Source of the DNA: a virus | Length of the DNA stretch: 23,817 nucleotides | IMG/VR virus record: IMGVR_UViG_3300045964_000112 | Coordinates: 1 to 23,817 of that record | Strand: one strand, 5' to 3' | Shown: positions 2,887-23,817 of the stretch, one piece after another | Layout: each line of letters starts with the position of its first letter | Numbering within the stretch: the stretch's first letter is position 1 | Position numbers and translations under genes: made by a program | The notes under the pieces: model-generated | What the model was told of the DNA's origin: nothing | What the model saw: only the letters and a program-made list of their open reading frames with translations | Databases searched by the model: none

Positions 2887-3216
2887 TCAGGCCGGCGGTG
2901 CCCGTTCCACTGTCCCGTGTCGCATCGCCAGCCGGCGCGCGTGCACGAGCGCGGCCTCGACCTCCATTAGTTGTGTCCGGTGGTACGTGGCCTGGCGCTC
3001 GTAGAACGCGATGAACACCGCGATCGCTGCCTGCGGCGTCTCGCCAAAGTGTTGGGCGTACTCGGCGTGCGAGTACCGATTGACTTGGGGGTAGCGGGTG
3101 CCGCGCATTGTCGTCGCGTGGTGCTCGGTGAAACTCACGCGGTACTCGTCCACTGTTGTGCCGTCGTGTGAGACGCGCCACGCCGTGGTCCAGGTCGCGG
3201 GCGTGTAGCGGCTCAC
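2887..3216 (-). CDS. Hypothetical early phage protein
   Basis: 109 residues. The first half is probably beta-rich (TTAWRVSHDGTTVDEYRVSF); the second half is a long helix (TPQAAIAVFIAFYERQATY onward). No motif recognised. The GTG start overlaps the TGA of the initiator gene (GTGA), and a GGTGAG sequence lies just upstream, so it is probably translated by coupling to the initiator. A neighbouring frame in the same place reads as an Arg-rich shadow. Confidence 0.65.
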   Translation of the reverse strand: MSRYTPATWTTAWRVSHDGTTVDEYRVSFTEHHATTMRGTRYPQVNRYSHAEYAQHFGETPQAAIAVFIAFYERQATYHRTQLMEVEAALVHARRLAMRHGTVERAPPA

Positions 3217-4091
3217 CGCTCACCGTCCCGGCGGTCCCGGCGCAGTTCCGGATGTTTCAACAGGTACCACTCGCGGGCACAGGCGCCGGGGATGTACCGA
3301 AGGTACTCGGCGCTGCGCAGGCGAAGCTCGCGGCAGCGCGCCTTGGTCGCGTGTTCGTGATCGGCCTCGGTCTCGAGCTGGGCGCCGCCGTTGAGCGCAC
3401 ACTGCACCGCTGGGGGTTGCTCCAGCACCCACCGCGCCACGCCGGCGATCTTCCAATAGGCAACGTTGTAGCGTCGTTCACGCGCCCGCTTCGCTGCTTC
3501 CATCGGGTGGGGGGTGTCGATCCCCAGGCCCGGCAAGCGTTGACTCACAGGTCGGCGGGGAGGGTCGGCTGCGTCAGCAGCATTCTTTAAGAGATCATTA
3601 AGAGGAGATACAGAAGGAGATCTATGTGATCCCTGGATCACACCCCCTGCGATCCCTGGATCGCACCCCCTGCGATCTCCGACGGGTGTGATCCCAGGAT
3701 CACACCCGTCGCGAAATCGCGCTCGCACGGCCCGGCGCGGCGGCCACGCCGCCATGTTCTTCGCCGTGAGACTCGGATCGATCGCCTGCGCCTCGACCAG
3801 CGCGCGCGCGATCGCCCGCTCGAGGGTGATCACGAATCGGTTGCGGCGTCCGAGCCGGTGGTCCACACCGAGCCGCTGGATAGCCTCTTTCCCTTCCAGG
3901 TCCGCAATCACGACTTGGATGTAGCGGCGCGCGAGGCCGAGCTCGCGCGCGATCTTGCTGACCGACGGGTAGGCATAGCCGTACCGTCCGTCCCAGGCGT
4001 CGACGATCCGCTTCATCACGTCGCGTTGGGTCGGCGTGTCCCAGACGTTGACCATCGTGTCGAAGCGCACCTGGTGATCGTTCCGCGGCAT
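3213..4091 (-). CDS. Phage replication initiator with winged helix, gene contains origin
   Basis: 292 residues. Residues 20-95 contain a winged helix-turn-helix (YAYPSVSKIARELGLARRYI, then a wing ending RNRFVITLE), as in lambda-O-like replication proteins and RepA-N-type initiators that bind iterons. Residues 127-157 are a low-complexity linker because the DNA encodes palindromic iterons, and 160-172 correspond to an AT-rich stretch. The C-terminal 100 residues form a second, Cys/Tyr-containing helical domain that may recruit helicase machinery. The ATG at 4091 directly follows the preceding gene's TGA; a GTG at 4109 in the same frame would add six residues. No helicase or loader gene is visible nearby. 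Confidence 0.75.
   Translation of the reverse strand: MPRNDHQVRFDTMVNVWDTPTQRDVMKRIVDAWDGRYGYAYPSVSKIARELGLARRYIQVVIADLEGKEAIQRLGVDHRLGRRNRFVITLERAIARALVEAQAIDPSLTAKNMAAWPPRRAVRARFRDGCDPGITPVGDRRGCDPGIAGGVIQGSHRSPSVSPLNDLLKNAADAADPPRRPVSQRLPGLGIDTPHPMEAAKRARERRYNVAYWKIAGVARWVLEQPPAVQCALNGGAQLETEADHEHATKARCRELRLRSAEYLRYIPGACAREWYLLKHPELRRDRRDGER
3581..3711. other. Putative phage replication origin: palindromic iterons plus AT-rich stretch
   Basis: Three dyad elements lie within the initiator gene: TGTGATCCCTGGATCACA (3625-3642), TGCGATCCCTGGATCGCA (3648-3665) and a 32-bp palindrome with 15-bp arms and a CA centre (3680-3711) whose core is TGTGATCCCAGGATCACA (3687-3704). A half-site TGCGATC lies at 3671-3677. 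Immediately left, 3581-3625 is about two-thirds A/T in an otherwise GC-rich region, with repeated GAGAT. This mirrors lambda, where iterons and an unwinding element lie inside gene O. The origin function is inferred. Confidence 0.72.
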
Positions 4092-4092
4092 T

Positions 4093-4434
4093 TCACATGC
4101 GCCCGTCACGCCGGCGGCAGGCGCAGGCCTGCACAGGGTCGTGGCACTGCGGACAGAGGCCGCTCGCCTCGAGGCGTGGGAGAGTGATCGGCGCCGAGCG
4201 CCGTTGCGACCCGCGCCACGCGGTCTGTGGACGACGCGCCGGCCGCGCCCCTGGGAGTCGCGGCGCGCGTGTGTTGGGTGTCGACGGCGGTCGTGTCTGA
4301 GACGTCTGAGACTTATCGGTCGTCGGGGTTGGCGGCTGGCGCAACTCGTTTCGAAGGTCCGCGATCTCCTGCACGAGGCGCTTGGCGATCTCCTCCAGGC
4401 GAGAAAGGCGACGGTCGGCGTCGGCGCGATTCAT
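4093..4434 (-). CDS. Coiled-coil early protein with C-terminal Cys cluster
   Basis: 113 residues: a heptad-like coiled coil (about 5-33, RRLSRLEEIAKRLVQEIADL), a Pro/Thr/Arg-rich disordered linker (34-88) and a tail CPQCHDPVQACAC (94-106) that could bind zinc. The linker includes SQTSQT, encoded by two tandem GTCTGAGAC units (plus strand). The ATG at 4434 overlaps the exonuclease TGA (ATGA). Its position between exonuclease and initiator suggests a role in recombination or replication, but no family is recognised. Confidence 0.66.
   Translation of the reverse strand: MNRADADRRLSRLEEIAKRLVQEIADLRNELRQPPTPTTDKSQTSQTRPPSTPNTRAPRLPGARPARRPQTAWRGSQRRSAPITLPRLEASGLCPQCHDPVQACACRRRDGRM
4295..4312. 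repeat. Tandem GTCTGAGAC 9-mers
   Basis: Two perfect copies of GTCTGAGAC in tandem, inside the linker-coding part of the coiled-coil gene. Related 9-mers recur in an intergenic position at 10203-10229. Confidence 0.8.
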
Positions 4435-5264
4435 GCGGCCCTCCGCATCGGCGACAACCCGCCCCGCCCTTCGAGAATGCGCGCACCGGCGGCGTGAACC
4501 TCGCGCGCGAGCACGAGATCGGCCGTTTGGTAGTAGGCGGCGATCGCCGTGACCGGCGCGAGCTCGGCGCAGAAGGCGCGAATCAGCCCGTCGTACCACG
4601 CGATGTGCCGCTCGTCGCGCACGACGCGCAGGACGTGGAGCCGCTGACTCGCCGGCAGGCGATCGTCGAAGCTGACAAAGTCGCACCACGACGCGTTGGT
4701 CAACCAGAGCGCGTGCGTGATCTGCGCGCGGTAGTCACGCGGGATGCACTTGTGGCCCAGGCCGTAGGCGAGGTGGGCCAGGGTGTTGGGCGCTTTCACT
4801 TCGACGACGCCGTCGAACTCGCCGACGTGGCCGTCGAGCGAGGCACCGGCCGGCAGTGTCGGGTGCGCCACAAAGCCGGTGCTCTGCACGGTGTAGCCGG
4901 CGCGCGCCGCGTAGGCCTCGAGGGCTGGTGCCTCGAGGAGACGGCCGCGGCGCATCGCGCCGCTCTCGAAGCGTGAGCCGTGCGGACGGCCGGTGAGGGA
5001 CTCGCGTACCAGTTGCCACAGGTAGTCGCGACGCGCGGTGGACTGAAAGAGCCCCAGCCGCTTGCGCGGCAGGAGGAAGTAGGCGCCCGTCCCGGTCACC
5101 CGGCCGACACGCAGGTCCTGCCACGCCGCCGAACGTTGCGCGACGTGATGGACGATGGGCGGCGGTTGCAGGGTGAGGGGGGCTGGGCCGTCGAAGTCGA
5201 AGCGGAGCGTGCGATCGGTCAGGCTATACGCCAGGGAACTGACGACGTCGGGCAGTGGGGGCAT
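4431..5264 (-). CDS. YqaJ/lambda-type phage recombination exonuclease
   Basis: 277 residues. The order QRSAAWQDLRVGRVTGT (43-59), GRLLEAPALEAYA (107-119), ASLDG (141-145) and EVKAPN (155-160) is that of the PD-(D/E)XK fold in YqaJ-type viral recombinases, with E111, D144, E155 and K157 as likely catalytic residues and RAQITHALWLT following. The enzyme resects double-stranded ends to give 3' single strands for annealing during phage recombination. The ATG at 5264 has AGGAGG about 12 nt upstream, somewhat far. No RecT/Bet-type annealing protein is recognised among its neighbours. The family call is confident. Confidence 0.88.
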   Translation of the reverse strand: MPPLPDVVSSLAYSLTDRTLRFDFDGPAPLTLQPPPIVHHVAQRSAAWQDLRVGRVTGTGAYFLLPRKRLGLFQSTARRDYLWQLVRESLTGRPHGSRFESGAMRRGRLLEAPALEAYAARAGYTVQSTGFVAHPTLPAGASLDGHVGEFDGVVEVKAPNTLAHLAYGLGHKCIPRDYRAQITHALWLTNASWCDFVSFDDRLPASQRLHVLRVVRDERHIAWYDGLIRAFCAELAPVTAIAAYYQTADLVLAREVHAAGARILEGRGGLSPMRRAA

Positions 5265-5358: not shown

Positions 5359-5607
5359 CTAGCGCCGCCATCGATACCGGTCTTCGCGCGCCGCGCGTCG
5401 CCCGTCTTGCTCGATCTCTTGAAGGGACGGGATCGACGTCGAGGCAGGCACGGCGCGCAATAAGTCCTCTTCCCAGACGAGCACGCGGTTCGAACCCGGA
5501 AGACTCCGGTTCGGAATGCCGTGCCGAATGCGAAACTCACGGAACGCCTTCGCACTCGGCAACTTGAGCAGCGCTGCCGCTTCCGTCGCCGTCAACGCCG
5601 GTTTCAT
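5359..5607 (-). CDS. Small HTH protein, excisionase/AlpA-like
   Basis: 82 residues. The N-terminal 50 follow the MerR/excisionase-type winged helix: LTATEAAALLKLPSAKAFRE, a turn, then RVLVWEEDLLRAV where the wing and following helix are expected. The rest is a charged tail. Such proteins bend DNA as recombination directionality factors or act as small regulators. The ATG overlaps the stop of the Cro-like gene (ATGA), so the two are co-translated from the early promoter. Placement away from int does not exclude an Xis role. Function is inferred from fold only. Confidence 0.6.
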   Translation of the reverse strand: MKPALTATEAAALLKLPSAKAFREFRIRHGIPNRSLPGSNRVLVWEEDLLRAVPASTSIPSLQEIEQDGRRAAREDRYRWRR

Positions 5608-5843
5608 GATGCGAGTCGCGCGACAGACAACAGGTAGCGACGCGGTGAGTACCCGAGCGCTCGCGACAACTTGTCGGCGGTGCGCTCGGTTTGTGTGTCA
5701 CCCCTCAAAAAGCGGCTGACGGTCATGTCCGACACCTTTGCCGCGCGGGCCAGGTCAGTCGGGAGCCAACCCTTGAGCGCCATATCGGCCACGATGCGGA
5801 CGGTGTCGTAACGGGGCTTCGGTCGGATTCCCGGTGTTTCCAT
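5604..5843 (-). CDS. Xre-family HTH regulator, Cro-like
   Basis: 79 residues. Helix-turn-helix at about 28-48 (TDLARAAKVSDMTVSRFLRG), followed by ERTADKLSRALGYSPRRYL, typical of small Xre/Cro DNA-binding proteins. It is the first gene of the leftward early operon and is divergent from the repressor at 5939, as Cro is from CI. The ATG at 5843 has no ribosome site but lies 2 nt beyond the predicted transcription start, so the message is probably leaderless. A Cro role is inferred from position. Confidence 0.8.
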   Translation of the reverse strand: METPGIRPKPRYDTVRIVADMALKGWLPTDLARAAKVSDMTVSRFLRGDTQTERTADKLSRALGYSPRRYLLSVARLAS

Positions 5844-7292: not shown

Positions 7293-7829
7293 ATGAAGAA
7301 ACGATCCGCATCGTCTCGGTCCGGCGGGCGCGTGATTCGGAAAAAACGCGCTATCACCAAGCGCGCACCGGCCCTCTCCGTTGAAGAATTTGATCGCCTG
7401 GCCGACCTGCCGGCCGACGATCCCGCCGGCGACTTGACGCCGCACCTGGACTGGTCGAAGGCGCGGCGGCCCGCGCGAGCCGCCAAGAACGCGCGGTCTA
7501 CCATCGTGCGCCATCGTCTGACGTCCACTAGGCTCGCGCGGCAGGCCGCCTTGCAGCCGATCCCGCACGTCCCCGACGCGGCGATCGACTTCTCAGACAT
7601 CCCAGAGGCCACGCGCGAACAACTCGCGCAGTTCCGCCGCGCGTCCCTCGGGCGGCCGCCGATCGGATCGGCCACGCGCCAGGCGATCTCTATCCGTCTC
7701 GATCCGGCAGTTCTCCGCGAGTTGCGCGCCGAAGCGACGCGGCGCGGTGTGGGCTATCAGACCTTGCTGAATGATGTGCTCGCGGGTGCGGTTCTCCGTT
7801 TCCGCCAGGACCGAAAAGCGCACCGATGA
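7293..7829 (+). CDS. brnA: Composite antitoxin: CopG-antitoxin-like N-terminus, BrnA-like C-terminus
   Basis: 178 residues, about twice the usual BrnA size. Residues 28-58 (SVEEFDRLADLPADDPAGDL, then LDWSKARRP) resemble the acidic N-terminal toxin-binding region of CopG-type antitoxins. Residues 92-170 follow BrnA: AIDFSDIPEATREQ, then AISIRLDPAVLRELRAEA and GVGYQTLLNDVLAGAVL, a ribbon-helix-helix DNA-binding domain. It is predicted to bind DNA as a dimer and repress the cassette promoter. No intact toxin gene lies next to it. Its TGA overlaps the integrase ATG, so int expression is coupled to it. The BrnA-like call is good; the fusion reading is moderately sure. Confidence 0.75.
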   Translation: MKKRSASSRSGGRVIRKKRAITKRAPALSVEEFDRLADLPADDPAGDLTPHLDWSKARRPARAAKNARSTIVRHRLTSTRLARQAALQPIPHVPDAAIDFSDIPEATREQLAQFRRASLGRPPIGSATRQAISIRLDPAVLRELRAEATRRGVGYQTLLNDVLAGAVLRFRQDRKAHR

Positions 7830-13840: not shown

Positions 13841-15411
13841 TACCAGGTCACCTCGAGCACCAGGTAGGCGCGCGTGAGCGAGGTGATCGAATCGACGGTG
13901 ATGCCGAACACGTCGCCGGCGCTGAACGACGTCGTCCAGCCCGTGAGCGTCGAGCTCGAGGCCTGCACGCCGCTACTGAGCGTCGGCTTGGCGCTCGCCG
14001 TGATCGTGTCGGCGATCGTCGGCGGGTAGTTCGGCGCCGTGTCCTTCCAGATGTCGAAGACGATCGAGCCGGTCGTGATGCTCGGATCGGCCGAGAACAC
14101 CCACCACTTGGTGATGGTCCCGGCGCGCGGCATCGGCGCGCTCACGCCCTTGAAGCCGGTCGTGATGGCGGCGGCGCCGGCGCCGTCGATCTGAAAGAGC
14201 AGCGTACTGGTGCCCGCGCCCCCGGCCGGCGCCGCCCAGGTACCGTCGCCGCGCAGGAAGTGTGCGGTGTTGTTATCGAGTTTCGGGAGCAGCCCGTGCG
14301 CCGACGTCGAGGCATTGAGCGTCGTGACGTCGGTCGGCGCCGCGAGCTCGTCGAGCCGGATCGGATCGGCGCCGCCGCTCTTGTGCCGGCTCGCGTGGAT
14401 GAGCGGCGCGTAGCGCGCGTCGGCCTCGGCCTCGGTGATACCGCCAGGCGCCGACGTCGACGCCCCGACCTGGAGGGAGACGTTGTCGATGTAGAACCCG
14501 ATCGCGCCGCCGAAGTCCTCGACCTGGATCTGCGTGGCGGTCGTGCCGAGCGGAATCGCAAACGCGGAGACGGGGATCGCGACCTGCTGGTAGGCGGTCG
14601 TGACGGTGGAATCGAACCCGTAGGTGCCGGTGCGCCGGATCTGCACCGTGGCGCCGACGAGCGTCCCGCTCGCGCGGAACGAGACGAGCAGCCCGCGACT
14701 GGTGTTCCAGGCGCCCTTGCTGCGAATGAAGAAGACCAGGGCGTCGTAGTCGTTGGGCTCGATCGAGCCACTGCCAATCGTGCCGCGCGCGTAGACGCCG
14801 GCGGCGACGTTGGTGCCCTCGATCGTTTTCGTCCCCGTGTGCGGGTTGGTCGTCGAGTTGACGTTGAGGGACGCGCCGCTCGCGGTCCAGTTCCATTCCG
14901 TCGGGGCGCCGGCGTTGTCGGTGTAGAGCGTGACCGTGGTCGCGCCGGCCGGCGCCGTGGCGCCCGCCGGGACCGAGACGATCGCGAGCTTGACGTAGCT
15001 CGCCGGGTCGACGGTCGGCTCGCTGGCGGCGGCCGCGGCGGTGCCCGTCACCTTGTCGACCGTGCCCGTGGTGTCGAGCACAATCACGTCGATGCGCGGG
15101 TCGCTCGGGTCGGCGGCGTCGAGCGTGATCGTTTGCTCGGCGCTGTCGTAGCGCGTGCCGTTGATCTGATAACTCGCGGCGCTCACGCGGAACGTGAACC
15201 CCGACTCCCACACGACCTGGCCGCCGCTAATCAGGAACGTGTTGAACGTCGACCCAGAGCTCGGCGGCGGCGTCGTCCCGCTCGCGGTGAGCGTGCCATC
15301 GAGTTCGAGGCCGTCGCCGATCGGCACGACCTTGACGCGGCCGGCGCTGTCGGTCACCAGGACGCCGTTGGGCCGCGCGCCGCCCTGAATCGCGATCGCC
15401 CGACTACTCAC
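13840..15411 (-). CDS. Tail fibre protein with carbohydrate-binding-like module
   Basis: 523 residues from the GTG at 15411, which overlaps the stop of the giant gene. Residues 1-150 resemble a fibre base domain (FNTFLISGGQVVWESG, then RIDVIVLDTTG). Residues about 165-315 look like a jelly-roll sugar-binding module (ending GAIGFYIDNVSLQ). At 334-348 is HASRHKSGGADPI, a motif frequent in phage tail fibres, and near 385 LRGDGTWAAP, a common fibre repeat. A beta domain of about 130 residues ends the protein. It lies between the giant virion protein and the spike, as expected of an adsorption module. The frame is open further upstream, but that part is a shadow of the giant gene. Confidence 0.8.
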   Translation of the reverse strand: MSSRAIAIQGGARPNGVLVTDSAGRVKVVPIGDGLELDGTLTASGTTPPPSSGSTFNTFLISGGQVVWESGFTFRVSAASYQINGTRYDSAEQTITLDAADPSDPRIDVIVLDTTGTVDKVTGTAAAAASEPTVDPASYVKLAIVSVPAGATAPAGATTVTLYTDNAGAPTEWNWTASGASLNVNSTTNPHTGTKTIEGTNVAAGVYARGTIGSGSIEPNDYDALVFFIRSKGAWNTSRGLLVSFRASGTLVGATVQIRRTGTYGFDSTVTTAYQQVAIPVSAFAIPLGTTATQIQVEDFGGAIGFYIDNVSLQVGASTSAPGGITEAEADARYAPLIHASRHKSGGADPIRLDELAAPTDVTTLNASTSAHGLLPKLDNNTAHFLRGDGTWAAPAGGAGTSTLLFQIDGAGAAAITTGFKGVSAPMPRAGTITKWWVFSADPSITTGSIVFDIWKDTAPNYPPTIADTITASAKPTLSSGVQASSSTLTGWTTSFSAGDVFGITVDSITSLTRAYLVLEVTW

Positions 15412-18400
15412 CGTCGTAGCCCTCGCGGTCGTAGCCGAACGCCATCGCGCGCAGCAGGCCGATCTCGAGCTCGCCCTCGGACCACGCCTTGTACGAGCGC
15501 CAGGCGCGCAGCGCCGCGCCGGTCGGCAGTTGCAGGAACGCGCCGCCGATCGAGACGCCGCCGGCGCCCGCTTCGCCCAGGACCGCCATGTAGTCCTCGT
15601 CGTTCCAGGCGCCGACCACACGCTTGGCCGTGTCGCCGAAGGTCGCGATCGGGCGCGTGCCTGGCGGGCCTTCGTAGCCGAAGACGCTGCCGGCCGCCTG
15701 CCAGCCGTCACGCACGAACAAGGTGGTGCCGGCCATCGCCATGCCCACCTCGAAGAGGAACCGCTCGTCGTCGTCGTCGTCGCCCAGGTCGCCGCGCGTG
15801 CCCTCACGCACGAGCGTGATGATGGCGGGGCCAACCAAGAAGAGGAACGCGAACTGCGCCGCGAGCTCGCCGCTCGCTTTCAGCTTCGAGCCGCCCGTGC
15901 CGACGTCGCGTCGGCTCTTGTGCATCTGCTCGGTCCACAGGTTGTAGGTCGCGAGCATCGGCCCGAAGAACGTGGTGAACAGTTTCTGGAACTCGTCGCC
16001 GCGGAGCACCTCGGCCTGGTAGGCCGACTCGCCAGAGGCCTGCGTGTCGCGCACGACCTGGTTGCCGATCGCGATCGCCGTCGCCTCGTCCTTGCCCTGC
16101 TTGAGCGCCTGGTCGCGCGCGGCCGTGTAGGCGACCGCGTCGACCAGCGACTGCATCTTGGTAATCATCGCGAAGAACCCGCGCTGGGCGTGGGCGTAGG
16201 TGACCCGGTCGCGGAACACCTTGCGCGTGATCGCGTCCATGCCGATCTCGAACTGGCCCTGGTGTAACCCGACGCGCTGCGCGAACTCGTGAATCTCGCG
16301 GTTGATCGTTTGCGGCCGCGTCCGCATGAAACTCGACTCGGCGCGGATCTGTTTCAGGCGACTCTGGCCGCCGAGCACGCGCAGCGCCGCGGCGAGTGTG
16401 CGCACCGGGCCGACGCGCGCCATCACGTTGCCCAGGCCGGCGACCTGGAGCAGCGGCGTGACGAAGTTGAGGCCCAGGCCGACGACCTGCGAGCCGCGCC
16501 GCATCGTGTTGACGAACCCGGAAATGTCTTTGTATTCCTGGTGCTCGCCGACCGCGATATAGCGGAGGCTTTTGCGAATCGTCTCGAGCGGCTTGTCGCC
16601 ATGCACGGCGTGGATCGCCTTCGCGAGCTCGCCGCGCGGGTTGAGGATCCGGCCGACGTCAATGATCGCTTCGTGCATCGCAATCGCGTGAATGACGTCG
16701 TTCAGGTGTTCGGGAATCACGCCGAAGTCGAGCCGCACCGCGCGCGACACGTTGCCCTCGGCGCGCTGCTTCTCATGCCCGCGGCGCACGGTCGTCGCCA
16801 TGTACGCGGTGTTCTGGTGCAGGAGGCCGACGCCGGCGTCCTCATGCGCCGCGGCGATCGGGCTCGAGGCCGCCTCGAACTTGATGGGGAAGTAGCCGCC
16901 GCGCAGCGTGCGGGGGGTGCCGCCGACGTTGACGGTGAAGGGCTCGGCCTCGACCTTGTCGGCCGCGGACCCCTGGATCCGTTTCATCTTCTTGGCCGTC
17001 TCGTCCCAATAGCTGTCGATGTGGACCCACACCCCTTCGACCCAGTCCCAGTCGCGGGCGTCGAGCGACTCGAGGATCGCCGTGTAGGTCGGCTCGCCCC
17101 AGCCGTGGCCGTCGCGCATCCGCTGTTTGTTCGTCGCGTTGCCGGAATTGAGCGCGACCATGAGGCGCGCCATCTTCGAGAGGCGCAGCCCGGTACCTGG
17201 CACGAGCGCGAGCGCCTGCATCGAGAGCTGCTCGCCGCCGGTGTAGTGCGTATTGAGGTGGTCGACGAAGAAGGTCGTCGCCGTGCCCATCATCGCCGCT
17301 TTGGTTTCGAGCGCCTCGTTCAGCGGCCGCATGAGGTACTGCCAGAGCGGCCCGTGCGAATAGCCGTCCATCTCGAAGATGAGCGACGAGAGCGTGCGGT
17401 GCCCCAGCACCCAGCCTTTCCGTTTGCGGTTGCGCTGCTCCTCGGTGCGCCGCGGCTCGAGGACGACGCCGCGCGGCCGCGGGCCGACCTGTTCGACGTG
17501 CGTGGCGAGGTCGCCCTGGAGCGCCTCGAGGTCACGCGTCGCCTGCGCGGTGAGCAGCTTGTCCTTCAGCCGTCCCAGGTGGACGAGCGCCTTCACGCCG
17601 TCGCCGACGCCGTCGAGCTCCTCGACGGTGAGCTCGCGCCAGTGGATCCGCCGCGCGTCGTCCTTCACCTCGTCGGGGATGTGGTCGGTCGGCACGCCCT
17701 GCTGCGCGAGCTCCTCGAGATAGGCGCGGAGGGACTGCCGGCGCGAGAGGTCTTTGTTCGAGACGCGCCGGAACTCGTACCGCTCGAGCACCTGGTCGAT
17801 CTGGTCGAGCACGCCGGCCTTGCCCAGGCGGCCGCGCAGACGTGACGACGTGTCGAGTTGCCGCATCTGCCGCTCGATGCGCTCGCCCCGATCGACGGCC
17901 TCGAACGCCGCGCGCGCGAGCTCGAGGGCGAAGAGCTCCTGGCGCTTCGCGGCGATCGCGCCGGCGCGGTCGTTCTTGCCCCAGGCCTCGAAGGCCTGGT
18001 GACTCGCGCGCGCCGCGGCCGCCCGGTACTGGGCGGGGTGCAGGTCGCGCACGCGCGTCTTCGCGACGGCCTGCTGCGCGGCCAGGCGCGTGACCCTCGG
18101 GTTGGGAATCGCCGCGGCCGCCATGTTCTTGGTCAACATGGCGAGCTCGGCGGAAATGACCTTGCGCCGCTGGTCGGTCACCGCGGCCTTCGCCGCGTCG
18201 GCCAGCGAGAACTTGTCGAGCATCTGCGTGCCGTGCCGCTCGAGCATCCGCTTATCCGTCTCCGCGGCGATGACGGCGTTGAGCGCCGGCGTCACGACGA
18301 GCGCCTCGAGCAACGTCTCCGCGTCGGGGAAGCCGGTGAGCGTAGCGACGATGGCGGGGTCGCTGCCGCCGGCGCGCGTGTAGAGATACGGCCGGGGGAG

Positions 18401-21400
18401 GCGGTCGAGCATCTCGCGCCCGAACTGCTGGACGATCGCGTCCTTCGAGAGCTTGATGGGTGTGCCGTCACTGAACGACGGGTCAGTCCCGTCGGGCAGC
18501 TTGCCCGTGCGGATCACACTCTGTGCGACAAACGCCGGCTGGGCGTTGAACTCGCCCCGCACCTCGCGTTCGACGAGCTCGCGTTTGGCTTTCCAGTCGG
18601 CCGCCTGAGTCTTGCGCCAGTCGGCCATCACGACCGCGTTGAGCGCCTCGCGCGCTTCCTCGCTCGCCTGGCGCATCGCGGCCTCATGCGCCGCGAACTC
18701 GAGCTCACTCACACCGGCTGTGGCCGCGTTCGAGAAGAGCGGCTTGAACGACCGCTCGCGCTGGGCGGCCGCGATCGCCTCCTCGCTCGCGAACAGCCGG
18801 TCCATGACGCCGCGCACGTCCTCGGGCACGTCGATGCCGCGCCCGGTGAGCGTGCGGTAGACGGCGACGAGCCAACTGCGGAACTTGGAGAACAGCGACT
18901 GGAGCTCGGGCGTCGGCGCCTGGCCCTGGTGCAAATACTCGACGAAGGCCTCGGCCCACGTCTCATGCATCCGGCGTGCGTCGTCGGTCACCTCGAGTGC
19001 CTGGAACTCCTCGAGCGTGCCCGTGAAGCCGATGAACGCGAGCGCCGTCGCTGCATCTGCACGCAGCGCGTGGCCCTCGGGCACCGACACCGCATCCTCG
19101 ACGAGCTCCTCGAGGAACAGGTGCGCGCTCTCATGCAGGAAGGTCGAGAGGTTCGCCTGGCCGGCGATGAGTCGAATAGTCCGTGAGTACTTGTTGAAGC
19201 CGCCGCGGAGGATGCCGCCCTCGTCGCCGCCGGCCGTGTCGGCGTGAGAGAACTCACCGGTGCGGCGTTCGCTCTTCGACGGGCGCACGAGCGTTCCGGC
19301 GATCGCGCCGTCGTAGTAGCGCGCGGAGCCGTTCGTGATGAAGCCGTGGCGGGCGTAGAAGCGCGCGAGCGCGCCTTTCTTGCGTGGCGCCGGCGCCGCG
19401 TCGAGCGACACCGCGAGGTTGTGCGCGTCAGCCCACGCGAGCAGCTGCTCGAGCATGGCGCTGCCGATGCCGTCGTTCTGGCGTGACTGCGGCACCGCGA
19501 TCGAATCGAGCGACAGGTCGCCGCCCTGGCTGATGTGCGCCTCGAGGAAGACGCCGCCGCCGGCGTTGTCGCGGATCTGCTGTGTGAGGGTGTCGAGCTC
19601 CTCGTTGAGCGCGTCACGCTCGGCACCTGTCGGCCACGCGCGTGGCGCGCGCTCGCGTTGTTCGAACTCGCCGCGGCGTGCGTTGAACGCGCGGATCGCT
19701 TCGACTAAACTGTCTACGGATCCAGCGGATGTAGGTCGGGGAGCGGCGGTGCCCTGCCTAGTGGGTGCGTGGTGATCGTCACCGTGCACGGGCGCTGGGT
19801 CCGGCGTGATGACTGGCTCGTCGGGTCGGGTGGCAGGTCCTGCGACGTCTTCCGCCGACGCGGCCGGAGCGGTCCCCACAAAGGACGATGGGTCAGTCGC
19901 ACGCTCCACTTCGATCGCCTCGATTGCGTAGAGGCGGTCGCCGAGCTCGGGTTGCTGCCCGGGCCCCACTTCTTTGGCTGTGATTCTGACCAGACGCACG
20001 AAGCCGTCGCGCACGCGCAACGGCGCATAGAAGCGGTGGAACGCGACGATGGTGTTGTCGGTCGCCTGCCGTGCAGGCGCTGACTCCGCTGGGTTCAGAA
20101 TCGCGCGCTCGAAGAGCTGGTCGATGTTGGCCACGGCGAGAAAGTGATCAGCCCGCGTCGACGACCGCTCGACCACCTTCGGATCGTCGAGCATCTTGTT
20201 GATGCCGTCCCGGGTGAGCGTGGCGCGACGGCCCGAGGGGACGTTAATGAGCGACTTCCCTTGAAGGGTCCTGGCGGCCGCACGCGCCTCGGCCTTGGTC
20301 GACGCGGAGCGACGTGTCGCCTCTCCGAGATGCCAGAACTCGCGCTGTTCGAACTCGCCGCGCTTGGCGCGCGCGCGGGCCTTGGCGGCCTTTAGCTTTT
20401 CGCGCGCGGCTTTCTGCTGCGCGCGCTTGCGCGCCGCGGCGCCGTCGCGTCGGCGCTGACGGACCTCGTCGAGCCGGCGGGCGCTGCGGAGGAGCGCCGG
20501 CGTGACACGATGCGGGCCACGCGATCCCGTTCCGCCTGCTGCCGCGCGATCAGAATCGCGTCGGCGTCGGCGAGCATCTGATCGCGCAAAGACCCTGAGC
20601 TCTTCGCCATAGCCTGCTGCCTCCAGCAACGAGCGGACGTCCGCGTCCGCGGTGAACAAAGTCGCGAAATCCGGCACGCTGGCGATCGCCTCGTCGGTCA
20701 GTTTCCCCGATTTCAGGAACGCTTCGGCGCTGAGGCCCTCGGCCTCCGAGAGCTCATACAAAGTCTTTGCCCAGGACCACACCGTCTCCTGCACGTTGGC
20801 CGCGGTCCACGGCTCGCCGGTCCGGCGCGTGAGCGTCTTCGCAACGCGGCGCACCTTCGCACTAAAGGCGAGATAGCCCGGGGTCTTGCCCGGGTCGGTG
20901 CCGGCGACGTTGCGCGCGCCGCTGCCGAGTACGCCCTCCTCGAGCGCGGCGAAGGTGACCATCCACGAATCGGTCGTGACTTCGTGGACGTAGCCCCACA
21001 GGTTCATCGCGAAGCTGTGAACCTTCGGCCCAGAGAGCACGATGCGGAGCGGGTCCTCGGTGGCGAGCGCGGTGACCGCGTTGTTGCGCCACGAATCCAG
21101 CATGGAGGCCTCGTCGCGTTGGCCCGACATGCTGCGCGCCAGGAGCGCGAGGATCGCCTCGCGGTCGGTGGGACGCCCGGCCTCGAGCCAGTGCTTCCAC
21201 ATGCGGAGCGTGTTCGCGAGGTTGGTTTCGACCTCGGTGCGCGGCGAGAGCGCCGCCAGCAGCGCCGAGAAGCGCACGCTGTCGACCATCCCGAACATGG
21301 CACGGATCGCGGTGGTCGATCGCCCGTACCAGCCTTTCTTGGCGCGGCCGGCGACCGCGACCGCCTCCCAATCCGCGTCACGCGGAATCTCGAGGAACCT

Positions 21401-23817
21401 GTCGACGAGCGCCTGCGCGGTGTCGGCGCGGAGCTTGGCCTGCTCGGCGGGCGTCAGGTGCGGTGCGAGGACTTCGAACCCGTCGGGCGTGTTGCGCTCG
21501 TCGAGCTGGAAGAACTCGCCGCCGTCCTTGTAGATGCCAGCCTGCTGCAGCGGTGACTCGCCGCTCTTCATGCCGCGCGCGAGCTCGGCGTCCCGCGCTT
21601 CCACTTCGGCGAGCGCCGCCGCGTTCACCTCGAAGACGTAGACGGGCGTGGTCGCCTGGCCTTGTGCCCAGGCCGCGGCTGCGCGGTGGTGCCCGTCCAT
21701 CAGGTAGACCTGGCCCTGGTAGCGCACGCCGATCGCGGGCGGGTGAGTCGTCTGCGCGCCGTCGTCAGTCGTCTGCCGCTTCTGCTCGACGATCGCGCGC
21801 ACGACACTCGGCTGCGTGGCGACGAGCTGCGCAACGGGGACCTGCTCGATCGTGGGCCGCTGCGCGAGCGACTGCGCCGCCTGATACAGCTGCTCGGCAC
21901 GGCGTGTGTCGATGCGCGGGAACGGCACCGGCATCACGTCGACGACGTCGCGCTGCTCGAGCTCGTCGCCGAAGTGAATGTCGTCGACGCTGCCCTCGCC
22001 AGTGTCGACGGAATCGGGGGCCTCGTCCTCGGTGTGTTCGCGTAGCGACGGGTCGCCGATCCACAGGCCGCGCTCCCACCACTTCTCACTGATGTCGACA
22101 TCGAGCTCCTCGTGGAGCTCCTGCGTGCCGGGGAGCACATCGTCGGCGGTAGTGCCGCCGGCGGTGTCGGGCCGGCTCGCAACGTTGACCGCTTCGATGA
22201 GCACGTTCAGGTCGTCCTGCAGCCAGGCGTACCCGTCCTCCTGCATCAGCGAGCGGGTCAGGTCGTCCCAGGTGCGGCCGTCGGTACGGACCACGCTCTT
22301 GACGCCGTTGACGTCGTAGTGCGTCTCGCCGTTGACCGTGCGACCGCGGACGCCGTCGATCAGGTCGGTGACGCCGCCCTGGTCGGTGCGAATGCCGCCG
22401 TAGCCGGCGATCGCCGAGAGCAGGGTGCGCGGGTCGTCTTCCGCCTCGCGCTGCGCGGCGACGTTCTCGGCGCGCAGGCGCATCCGGTAGCGGAGCTCCT
22501 CGGCGAGCAGGGCGCCGTCGACCGCGGGGTCGAGCGCCGTCGCGGCGTCGACGACGTGCGTGACGATTGCTTCGGTGTGGGCCGTCTCGCGGGTCTGGCG
22601 CGCCTCGCGCGTTTCGCCCTCGACGCCGCGCGACGGGGGAATGTCGTTGGCGCGCGCGGCGGCCTGCGGGGTGGCGGCGCGCGCCACGATGGGCCGGCCT
22701 TGGGTGTCGGTGATGGTGAAGGCGAACGGCCGCGAGCGATAGAGCTCGAGTGGGTCGACGCCGCGCGCCTGGGCGCGGGTCACCTCGCGCGTGGCGATGT
22801 AGCGCGCGAACGTCTTGGCGAGTTGCGGCGACTCGCCGGCGCTGACCATCTTCTCGAGCACGTCGGCCGCGATCTGCACCGCCGGCGTGTCGGCCTCGCT
22901 CACCGTCTTGCTCTGGTCGGCGAGCGCCTCGACCTCGCGCTCGAGCGCGGCGGCCTCGGCCTGCGACTCGCGGACGTTCTGCTGTTCTGGAGAAAGCCGG
23001 AACTCGTTCTGGAAGAACTGGAAATGTTTGCCCTCGGCGGCGCCGGCAATCTTGGTGACGAAGGTGGCGAAGGGGACTGGCAGGTTCGGGAGCTCCTGCT
23101 GCCGCGCCTCGGCCAGGGCATTCGGGTTGCCGGTGAGCTCCGCGGCGACGACGTCGGGCTGGAGGCCTTCGTGTTGCCAGTACTCGGTGAACGTCTCGAT
23201 CGGCAGGTAGACGGTGTCGACGCCGTTGGCGGTGCCGGCCTGCGCGAGAATCTCGCCGGCGGCCTGCTCCGAGCGTTGCGCGACCTTGCTCGCGGCGACC
23301 GACGCGGCGAGCGCCTGCATGGCTTGCTGGCGCTGCTCGGCGATCGCGACCAGGCGTTCGTGGGCGCGGTGGCCCACGGTGGCGTGGACGCCGCCGGCGA
23401 CGGTGCCGCCGACGAGCCCGCCGAGCAGGCCTTCCTCGAGCATGTCGAGCGCGGTCTGCTTCGCATCGAACGCCTGGCCGGTCGTCGCGGTGGTGGTGAC
23501 GTCGGCGATCGCTTTCTGGAGCGCCTCGGTGATCGCTTCCGCGCGCATCTCCTTGACGCCTTCCTTGAGCGTGCCGGTGAGCCAGGTCGATCGGACCGGC
23601 TGCACCAGGGCTTTCGCGACGACGCGCTCGGCGACCTCGTGGCCCAGCACGCCGGCGAGGCGCTTGCCGATCCCGAAGGGCACCTTCGTGTCGAGCGCGG
23701 CGATCGCCGAGCCGCCCAGGAACGCGCCCAGGCCAATCTCGGCCTCGGGGTCGACCGCGCGAATGTCGGCGACCACTTCGCCGTAGCCGAGCGTGAAGCC
23801 GGGGATCGCGCCGATGA
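15404..23817 (-). CDS. Giant phage polyvalent protein, 5' end outside window
   Basis: The frame is open to the right edge; residues below are counted from the GTG at 23776. Regions in order: Gly/Ala-rich membrane-active-like segments (1-130); a conserved polyvalent N-terminal module (180-270, VDTVYLPIETFTEYW, then NEFRLSPEQQNVRE); ParB/Srx-like domain with DGHHR at 694-698; HhH-GPD-like region 765-1010 (LSGPKV near 914, TTDSW 934-938); Lys/Arg/Ala helix 1070-1135; LPD/barnase-EndoU-like region 1145-1290; GNAT acetyltransferase about 1400-1490 (QNDGIGSAML near 1432); HESAH metallopeptidase motif 1548-1552; long helical region; and an LPD38-like C-terminal region from about 2100, with a late hydrophobic segment near 2640. 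Motifs of the type GEF(F/E)Q precede several domains. Such proteins are thought to enter the host with the DNA. Individual enzyme activities are inferred. Confidence 0.82.
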   Translation of the reverse strand, partial: IGAIPGFTLGYGEVVADIRAVDPEAEIGLGAFLGGSAIAALDTKVPFGIGKRLAGVLGHEVAERVVAKALVQPVRSTWLTGTLKEGVKEMRAEAITEALQKAIADVTTTATTGQAFDAKQTALDMLEEGLLGGLVGGTVAGGVHATVGHRAHERLVAIAEQRQQAMQALAASVAASKVAQRSEQAAGEILAQAGTANGVDTVYLPIETFTEYWQHEGLQPDVVAAELTGNPNALAEARQQELPNLPVPFATFVTKIAGAAEGKHFQFFQNEFRLSPEQQNVRESQAEAAALEREVEALADQSKTVSEADTPAVQIAADVLEKMVSAGESPQLAKTFARYIATREVTRAQARGVDPLELYRSRPFAFTITDTQGRPIVARAATPQAAARANDIPPSRGVEGETREARQTRETAHTEAIVTHVVDAATALDPAVDGALLAEELRYRMRLRAENVAAQREAEDDPRTLLSAIAGYGGIRTDQGGVTDLIDGVRGRTVNGETHYDVNGVKSVVRTDGRTWDDLTRSLMQEDGYAWLQDDLNVLIEAVNVASRPDTAGGTTADDVLPGTQELHEELDVDISEKWWERGLWIGDPSLREHTEDEAPDSVDTGEGSVDDIHFGDELEQRDVVDVMPVPFPRIDTRRAEQLYQAAQSLAQRPTIEQVPVAQLVATQPSVVRAIVEQKRQTTDDGAQTTHPPAIGVRYQGQVYLMDGHHRAAAAWAQGQATTPVYVFEVNAAALAEVEARDAELARGMKSGESPLQQAGIYKDGGEFFQLDERNTPDGFEVLAPHLTPAEQAKLRADTAQALVDRFLEIPRDADWEAVAVAGRAKKGWYGRSTTAIRAMFGMVDSVRFSALLAALSPRTEVETNLANTLRMWKHWLEAGRPTDREAILALLARSMSGQRDEASMLDSWRNNAVTALATEDPLRIVLSGPKVHSFAMNLWGYVHEVTTDSWMVTFAALEEGVLGSGARNVAGTDPGKTPGYLAFSAKVRRVAKTLTRRTGEPWTAANVQETVWSWAKTLYELSEAEGLSAEAFLKSGKLTDEAIASVPDFATLFTADADVRSLLEAAGYGEELRVFARSDARRRRRDSDRAAAGGTGSRGPHRVTPALLRSARRLDEVRQRRRDGAAARKRAQQKAAREKLKAAKARARAKRGEFEQREFWHLGEATRRSASTKAEARAAARTLQGKSLINVPSGRRATLTRDGINKMLDDPKVVERSSTRADHFLAVANIDQLFERAILNPAESAPARQATDNTIVAFHRFYAPLRVRDGFVRLVRITAKEVGPGQQPELGDRLYAIEAIEVERATDPSSFVGTAPAASAEDVAGPATRPDEPVITPDPAPVHGDDHHAPTRQGTAAPRPTSAGSVDSLVEAIRAFNARRGEFEQRERAPRAWPTGAERDALNEELDTLTQQIRDNAGGGVFLEAHISQGGDLSLDSIAVPQSRQNDGIGSAMLEQLLAWADAHNLAVSLDAAPAPRKKGALARFYARHGFITNGSARYYDGAIAGTLVRPSKSERRTGEFSHADTAGGDEGGILRGGFNKYSRTIRLIAGQANLSTFLHESAHLFLEELVEDAVSVPEGHALRADAATALAFIGFTGTLEEFQALEVTDDARRMHETWAEAFVEYLHQGQAPTPELQSLFSKFRSWLVAVYRTLTGRGIDVPEDVRGVMDRLFASEEAIAAAQRERSFKPLFSNAATAGVSELEFAAHEAAMRQASEEAREALNAVVMADWRKTQAADWKAKRELVEREVRGEFNAQPAFVAQSVIRTGKLPDGTDPSFSDGTPIKLSKDAIVQQFGREMLDRLPRPYLYTRAGGSDPAIVATLTGFPDAETLLEALVVTPALNAVIAAETDKRMLERHGTQMLDKFSLADAAKAAVTDQRRKVISAELAMLTKNMAAAAIPNPRVTRLAAQQAVAKTRVRDLHPAQYRAAAARASHQAFEAWGKNDRAGAIAAKRQELFALELARAAFEAVDRGERIERQMRQLDTSSRLRGRLGKAGVLDQIDQVLERYEFRRVSNKDLSRRQSLRAYLEELAQQGVPTDHIPDEVKDDARRIHWRELTVEELDGVGDGVKALVHLGRLKDKLLTAQATRDLEALQGDLATHVEQVGPRPRGVVLEPRRTEEQRNRKRKGWVLGHRTLSSLIFEMDGYSHGPLWQYLMRPLNEALETKAAMMGTATTFFVDHLNTHYTGGEQLSMQALALVPGTGLRLSKMARLMVALNSGNATNKQRMRDGHGWGEPTYTAILESLDARDWDWVEGVWVHIDSYWDETAKKMKRIQGSAADKVEAEPFTVNVGGTPRTLRGGYFPIKFEAASSPIAAAHEDAGVGLLHQNTAYMATTVRRGHEKQRAEGNVSRAVRLDFGVIPEHLNDVIHAIAMHEAIIDVGRILNPRGELAKAIHAVHGDKPLETIRKSLRYIAVGEHQEYKDISGFVNTMRRGSQVVGLGLNFVTPLLQVAGLGNVMARVGPVRTLAAALRVLGGQSRLKQIRAESSFMRTRPQTINREIHEFAQRVGLHQGQFEIGMDAITRKVFRDRVTYAHAQRGFFAMITKMQSLVDAVAYTAARDQALKQGKDEATAIAIGNQVVRDTQASGESAYQAEVLRGDEFQKLFTTFFGPMLATYNLWTEQMHKSRRDVGTGGSKLKASGELAAQFAFLFLVGPAIITLVREGTRGDLGDDDDDERFLFEVGMAMAGTTLFVRDGWQAAGSVFGYEGPPGTRPIATFGDTAKRVVGAWNDEDYMAVLGEAGAGGVSIGGAFLQLPTGAALRAWRSYKAWSEGELEIGLLRAMAFGYDREGYDGE

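Follow-up and report, generated by a model that had tools for sequence, protein, structure and literature searches.

Intragenic origins and the locus studied

In phage lambda and the Stx phages, the initiator gene O has its iterons, which are imperfect inverted repeats, in its middle part, with an A/T-rich tract beside them, and the two extra iterons of the Stx O gene correspond to 13 extra residues in a protein that is merely longer (PMC7466680). A comparable layout was described for the RepA_N plasmid pSK41, in which the N-terminal winged helix-turn-helix (wHTH) domain of the initiator binds repeats placed centrally in its own gene and the origin-encoded linker is dispensable as protein (PMC5703833). 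In the hybrid Rep of pPR9, an HTH_36-like N-terminus and its origin replaced those of pSK41 as a block before the pSK41 C-terminus, and the resulting mini-replicon works (PMC5703833). For the mycobacteriophage RepA replicons, an HTH initiator gene with 171 bp of upstream sequence suffices for replication, and the authors suspect that the origin lies in the gene or just before it, as in lambda (PMC7157519). The literature on lambda, Stx, pSK41 and pPR9 thus supports an intragenic-origin architecture in relatives of the locus described here. The layout was already known, and our data indicate that it is common among phages with differing site sequences.

The window analysed (23,817 bases) is the complete IMG/VR entry IMGVR_UViG_3300045964_000112, and it is probably a fragment of a larger phage genome. 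It contains an array of three dyads within a replication initiator gene, which we consider, with a probability of about 0.8, to be a phage replication origin embedded in its own initiator gene in the manner of lambda O. The first-pass annotation had proposed such a lambda-O-like origin, and this is the best reading, supported by the comparisons given below, with origin function assigned as a candidate role.

The dyad array, its gene and its neighbourhood

The initiator ORF is located on the complementary strand at 3213–4109 and encodes 298 amino acids from a GTG start, with an in-frame ATG at residue 7. Profile searches matched it to phrog_391 ('replication initiation O-like', E 4.8e-5) and phrog_270 ('replication initiation protein', E 2.3e-4), and to PF13730 (HTH_36) with an E value of 2.3e-4, under Pfam's cut-off; HTH_36 is matched by 13 of 14 aligned relatives. 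The AlphaFold model, built on 14 aligned sequences, and its Foldseek matches, which are wHTH regulators, agree with HTH_36 in the relatives in placing a winged-helix DNA-binding domain at residues 21–108 (3786–4049, complementary strand). This domain was modelled confidently, with pLDDT of about 70–97 (about 90 over most of residues 21–80) and lower values at the wing and the C-terminal helix. The following linker (residues 109–167; 3609–3785, complementary strand), with pLDDT under 50, is probably disordered, and its coding segment contains all the dyads; in the C-terminal third, helices were modelled with low to moderate confidence. The initial assignment of the dyads to the linker-coding part of a winged-helix gene is right according to Pfam, PHROG and AlphaFold.

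The three palindromes reported at the outset are all present, and each is centred on GATCC-N2-GGATC. Dyad A, the first in gene direction (3680–3711, core 3687–3704), is 32 bp long with 15-bp arms and a 2-bp spacer (CGACGGGTGTGATCC-CA-GGATCACACCCGTCG), and it is followed by dyad B (3648–3665; TGCGATCC-CT-GGATCGCA) and dyad C (3625–3642; TGTGATCC-CT-GGATCACA). A degenerate half-site, TGCGATC, is found at 3670–3676, at a distance of 22 bp from the corresponding half of dyad B. The dyads had been called near-perfect and contrasted with the lambda iterons, but all three are perfect and the contrast fails: the lambda iteron is itself an imperfect 19-bp inverted repeat (PMC7466680), so that the dyads differ from it in degree only.

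With up to one mismatch, the core occurs five times in the window, against a mean of 0.89 in shuffled sequences, and none of 100 shuffles reached five; the three exact matches all lie in the array at 3625–3711. The nine perfect dyads with arms of at least 8 bp found in the window are an ordinary number (2–12 in shuffles); what is unusual is the presence of three dyads within 87 nt that share one core, one of them with 15-bp arms. With the protein kept fixed and codons drawn anew according to the codon usage of the phage, a single trial of 5000 gave three or more dyads with arms of at least 8 bp, and a single one of 5000 gave an arm of at least 15 bp. This arm-length test is significant; the shared-dyad statistic for the same gene is not (p 0.11), because it uses 6-bp arms and ignores arm length.

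The copies are also read differently. The copies at gene positions 405 and 444 (dyads A and B) are in frame 0 and both encode GCDPGI, whereas the copy at 467 (dyad C) is in frame 2 and encodes GVIQGS; the likeness is thus in the DNA and not in the peptide. The annotation had based selection on DNA symmetry on compensating changes, and the T/C and A/G pairs that distinguish dyads C and B are real, but they are not the strongest argument. Judged from the sequences, a stronger case for selection at the DNA level is the use of two frames for the same DNA in this gene, and of several frames in other phages.

A putative A/T-rich unwinding element (3582–3625) abuts the dyads on the C-terminal-coding side. 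As noted in the annotation, about two-thirds of it is A/T: it has 68% A+T against a window mean of 31%, a value that none of the other 44-nt segments of the contig equals. Matches in this stretch to the E. coli oriC-type 13-mers (GATCTNTTNTTTT) are at chance level and no DnaA boxes were found near the dyads, so the locus shows neither of the components of an oriC/DnaA-type origin. In the GC-skew analysis suggested earlier, the minimum falls about where it would be expected (2965 for the raw curve, 4112 after detrending). The excursion is slight, however, the third-position skew is noise and the window is a fragment; we rejected the skew as origin evidence, too weak to help here.

By likeness to ori-lambda, the N-terminal winged helix would bind each dyad as a dimer and the occupied array would bend the DNA, the A/T-rich stretch at 3582–3625 would melt next to the bound array, and the C-terminal domain may recruit a host or phage helicase. 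Since a linker accepts almost any residues, DNA sites can be held there with the protein unharmed.

Perfect dyads also suit dimeric HTH repressors, and the array lies within the early leftward operon. This cluster, on the complementary strand, is headed by a Cro/CI-type HTH gene (5604–5843; PF01381, E 9e-7), with a promoter-like site from the promoter scan just upstream of it (5880–5852), and continues with a YqaJ/lambda-Exo-like recombinase gene upstream of the initiator (4431–5264; PF09588, E 2e-16; phrog_149, E 7e-31) and then the initiator itself. The dyads might accordingly be sites at which the initiator or another phage regulator controls transcription of the early operon, rather than an origin. 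We consider this unlikely, because the dyads are 0.4–0.5 kb inside the gene and not at a promoter, the core is absent from the rest of the window, including the Cro/repressor intergenic region, the A/T-rich maximum adjoins the array, and arrays with other half-sites occupy the equivalent place in unrelated initiators. The position in an early operon behind the immunity switch is that of lambda-O-type origins. Two further features of the window were observed: a gene for a BrnA-like antitoxin at 7293–7829 (PF14384, E 1.7e-11), immediately preceding the integrase gene, and a single ORF of 2,790 codons at 15404–23776, about one third of the contig, which by inspection seems to encode a giant multi-domain phage protein.

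The half-site TGTGATC raised the alternative of a host reader, either a CRP-like regulator or a Dam/SeqA-type system acting on the GATC sites, nine of which fall in the 131 bp at 3581–3711 out of 178 in the 23.8 kb. The spacing in CRP sites is N6 between TGTGA and TCACA. TGTGATC...GATCACA resembles such a site with a wider spacer, N8 instead of N6, and dyad B has TGCGA. Equivalent arrays built on GGTGACAC, GGAAC, GGGACA or CGGCA have neither GATC nor the CRP half-site and, together with the lack of DnaA boxes near the dyads, they make a host reader very improbable.

Another possibility is that the array acts as a strand-specific hairpin (a single-strand initiation site, an attenuator or an RNA structure) and not as protein-binding dyads. 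The 131-nt strand does fold far better than its shuffles (z -7.0), and the DNA hairpin of dyad A alone reaches -16.6 kcal/mol (z -7.2). Good folding is, however, expected of any dyad array, nearby terminator-like matches are weak, and the spacers of 0 to 7 and the direct-repeat iterons of other members give no comparable hairpins, which leaves this reading with hardly any likelihood.

Dyad arrays and possible modularity in other initiators

To cover other viruses, we made two scans of 2.9 million viral contigs (IMG/VR) with DNA motifs only, leaving protein information unused. The scan for tandem GATCC-N2-GGATC revealed nine loci, five of which are mid-gene in the linker of a wHTH initiator: a contig with the same gene, L047, L063, L065 and L066. 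The L047 dyads (TAGTGATCCCAGGATCACTA) are also in different frames (LVIPGSL, SDPGITT). Tandem GACAC-N2-GTGTC was found at 88 loci, including 14 arrays of perfect dyads of at least 16 bp, and 11 of these 14 (about eight distinct) lie in linkers of HTH proteins. With GTACC-N2-GGTAC as control core there were two arrays, both outside HTH initiator genes. A loose-core scan lacking the perfect-dyad filter was uninformative, since it recovered mostly dispersed genomic repeats and G/C-rich microrepeats. Dispersed palindromic repeats of the GGACTTGATCCGNGGATC type were observed in and between genes of alphaproteobacterial genomes (L084, L116, L117, L132, L178, L179). Separately, L210 has a pair of GTGGACACCCGTGTCCAC dyads (2994–3054) in the part of a gene that encodes the C-terminal half of a protein of 549 aa. 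By inspection this protein does not belong to the HTH_36 initiators, and the pair may be an origin in a replication gene of a different type.

We also assembled a protein-first set of ORFs, picked by protein similarity or with one of two profiles (HTH_36, PHROG 391), and submitted it to a synonymous-permutation test for repeated dyads. At p<=0.03, repeated dyads were detected in 11 of 52 ORFs, three of the 11 being close relatives, and were clustered after the wHTH; among neighbouring control ORFs, 3 of 59 reached this level, with dyads scattered over the gene. Many HTH_36 ORFs, non-initiators included, showed no significant dyads in this test. Half-sites vary by phage and include TGTGATCC, GCGGATCC, GGTGACAC, AGGACAC, GGGACA, GGAAC, CGGCACA and GGCGGG, with spacers from 0 to 7. 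There are five copies of GGAAC-N4-GTTCC in L314, four TGGTGAACCCAGTTCACCA-like copies in L298 and seven copies in L331. Some initiators have direct iterons at the dyad position instead, among them eleven Arthrobacter phage proteins with GGGGTG, several of which are annotated 'replication initiation protein'.

A second DNA repeat, GAACCGTC or GAACCATC, was observed right after the iterons in Arthrobacter phages (L353–L361, L364, L365) and in L335–L338, L067, L292, L298 and L343. Its copies, often two to four, are spaced by about 11 bp and lie in varied frames (peptide RTVLEPSLNRPSEP), irrespective of the iteron half-site, and control genes rarely have it (six matches on the forward strand in 45.7 kb). 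It may serve these genes as a common element for unwinding or single-strand binding.

In the collections searched, we found one contig with an identical copy of the initiator gene and no diverged close relative, and in phage records no relative above weak wHTH similarity. Since 3213–4109 has no diverged relative, conservation of the DNA could be examined only in other initiators, and there the alignment check proposed in the annotation was favourable. In L335/L337/L338, none of 42 half-site positions changed against 15.2% in the rest of the gene (Fisher p 0.0012), while 3 of 12 spacer positions did; in L225/L257/L262, the corresponding values were 0 of 44 and 9.5% (p 0.014).

These results bear on a reading without DNA function, in which a GCDPGI-type peptide was duplicated in tandem or a mobile palindrome entered the linker. 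The copies are alike, linkers accept insertions, and the GATCC-N2-GGATC core is also a dispersed repeat in bacterial genomes. The differing frames show that peptide identity is not what is kept, the half-sites are frozen in related initiators where spacers and the rest of the gene change, and the strict dyad arrays of viral contigs concentrate in initiator linkers. We therefore regard a neutral or protein-level repeat as highly unlikely.

A Mantel test on 19 initiators showed a weakly positive correlation between wHTH identity and half-site similarity (rho 0.19, p 0.025), which is only suggestive because part of the set was chosen by half-site. One C-terminal domain, with 33–49% identity, follows a number of winged helices whose half-sites differ, and also unrelated N-termini (L346–L352), suggesting that the DNA-binding domain and the origin travel together. 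This domain (FWxxYPrKxgK...NQERWTDEP) was observed with varied N-terminal DNA-binding domains in L335, L339, L340, L343, L344 and L346–L352, and the N-terminus of L346 looks like ribbon-helix-helix. The varied N-terminal domains before it point to modular swapping. Tentatively, and with somewhat less than even odds, the HTH_36-type phage initiators as a class may carry a portable cassette, in which a winged helix is followed by a linker with its own dyads, and which is combined with exchangeable C-terminal domains. If this is true, the genes of thousands of uncharacterised wHTH proteins could themselves disclose the binding specificity of these proteins, giving a recognition code from sequence alone.

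For this uncultured phage, the 131-bp segment is an experimentally tractable origin candidate. More generally, many HTH_36 phage initiators, mostly annotated as mere HTH proteins, appear to store binding sites in their own linker, which would make origins findable from sequence and would make the family a natural data set for winged-helix recognition, comparing half-site with recognition helix.

Comparison with known systems

The RepA_N plasmids differ from the window initiator in their PF06970 wHTH, their DnaG-binding C-terminus, their TGTC-N5-GACA repeats and in being plasmids and not phages. A RepA_N replicon was rejected for the window, as its initiator matches HTH_36 and has no PF06970 match. 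In the pUSA03 rep gene (L367:101–1060), we found four repeats with a 23-bp spacing that between them use all three frames; A/T-rich repeats come after them. Pfam assigns this Rep (record L367) to RepA_N (E 2.5e-32), and it serves here as a RepA_N example only; in PMC5703833, pUSA03 is placed among the plasmids with the pPR9-type hybrid initiator. The pPR9 Rep linker likewise has repeats and then A/T-rich repeats, with a weak HTH_36 match (E 0.006), but its repeats are direct and in a single frame. In the mycobacteriophage RepA replicons, the authors found no repeated motifs in the regions that they inspected (PMC7157519).

The other HTH_36 phage initiators (L047, L063, L065, L066, L225, L298, L314, L331, L335 and others) share with the window initiator dyads right after the wHTH in differing frames, and differ in that each has its own half-site and spacer, with varied C-terminal domains.

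Compared with lambda/Stx ori-lambda, the dyads here are perfect with a 2-bp spacer, number three plus a half-site and not four or six, and have another half-site, and kinship of the proteins is remote (phrog_391). No lambda-P-like loader or helicase gene was found after the initiator in the window with Pfam and PHROG profiles; the downstream ORFs at 2887–3216 and 2360–2809 have no such match, the latter being HNH-like. As the contig is a fragment, the absent loader gene lowers the case for an O/P module and not for a locus that works like ori-lambda. The window initiator and ori-lambda are alike in having an initiator gene with mid-gene inverted-repeat iterons and an adjoining A/T-rich tract, and the locus shows the lambda-O-type arrangement of an N-terminal DNA-binding domain, inverted-repeat iterons in the linker and an A/T tract on the C-terminal-coding side.
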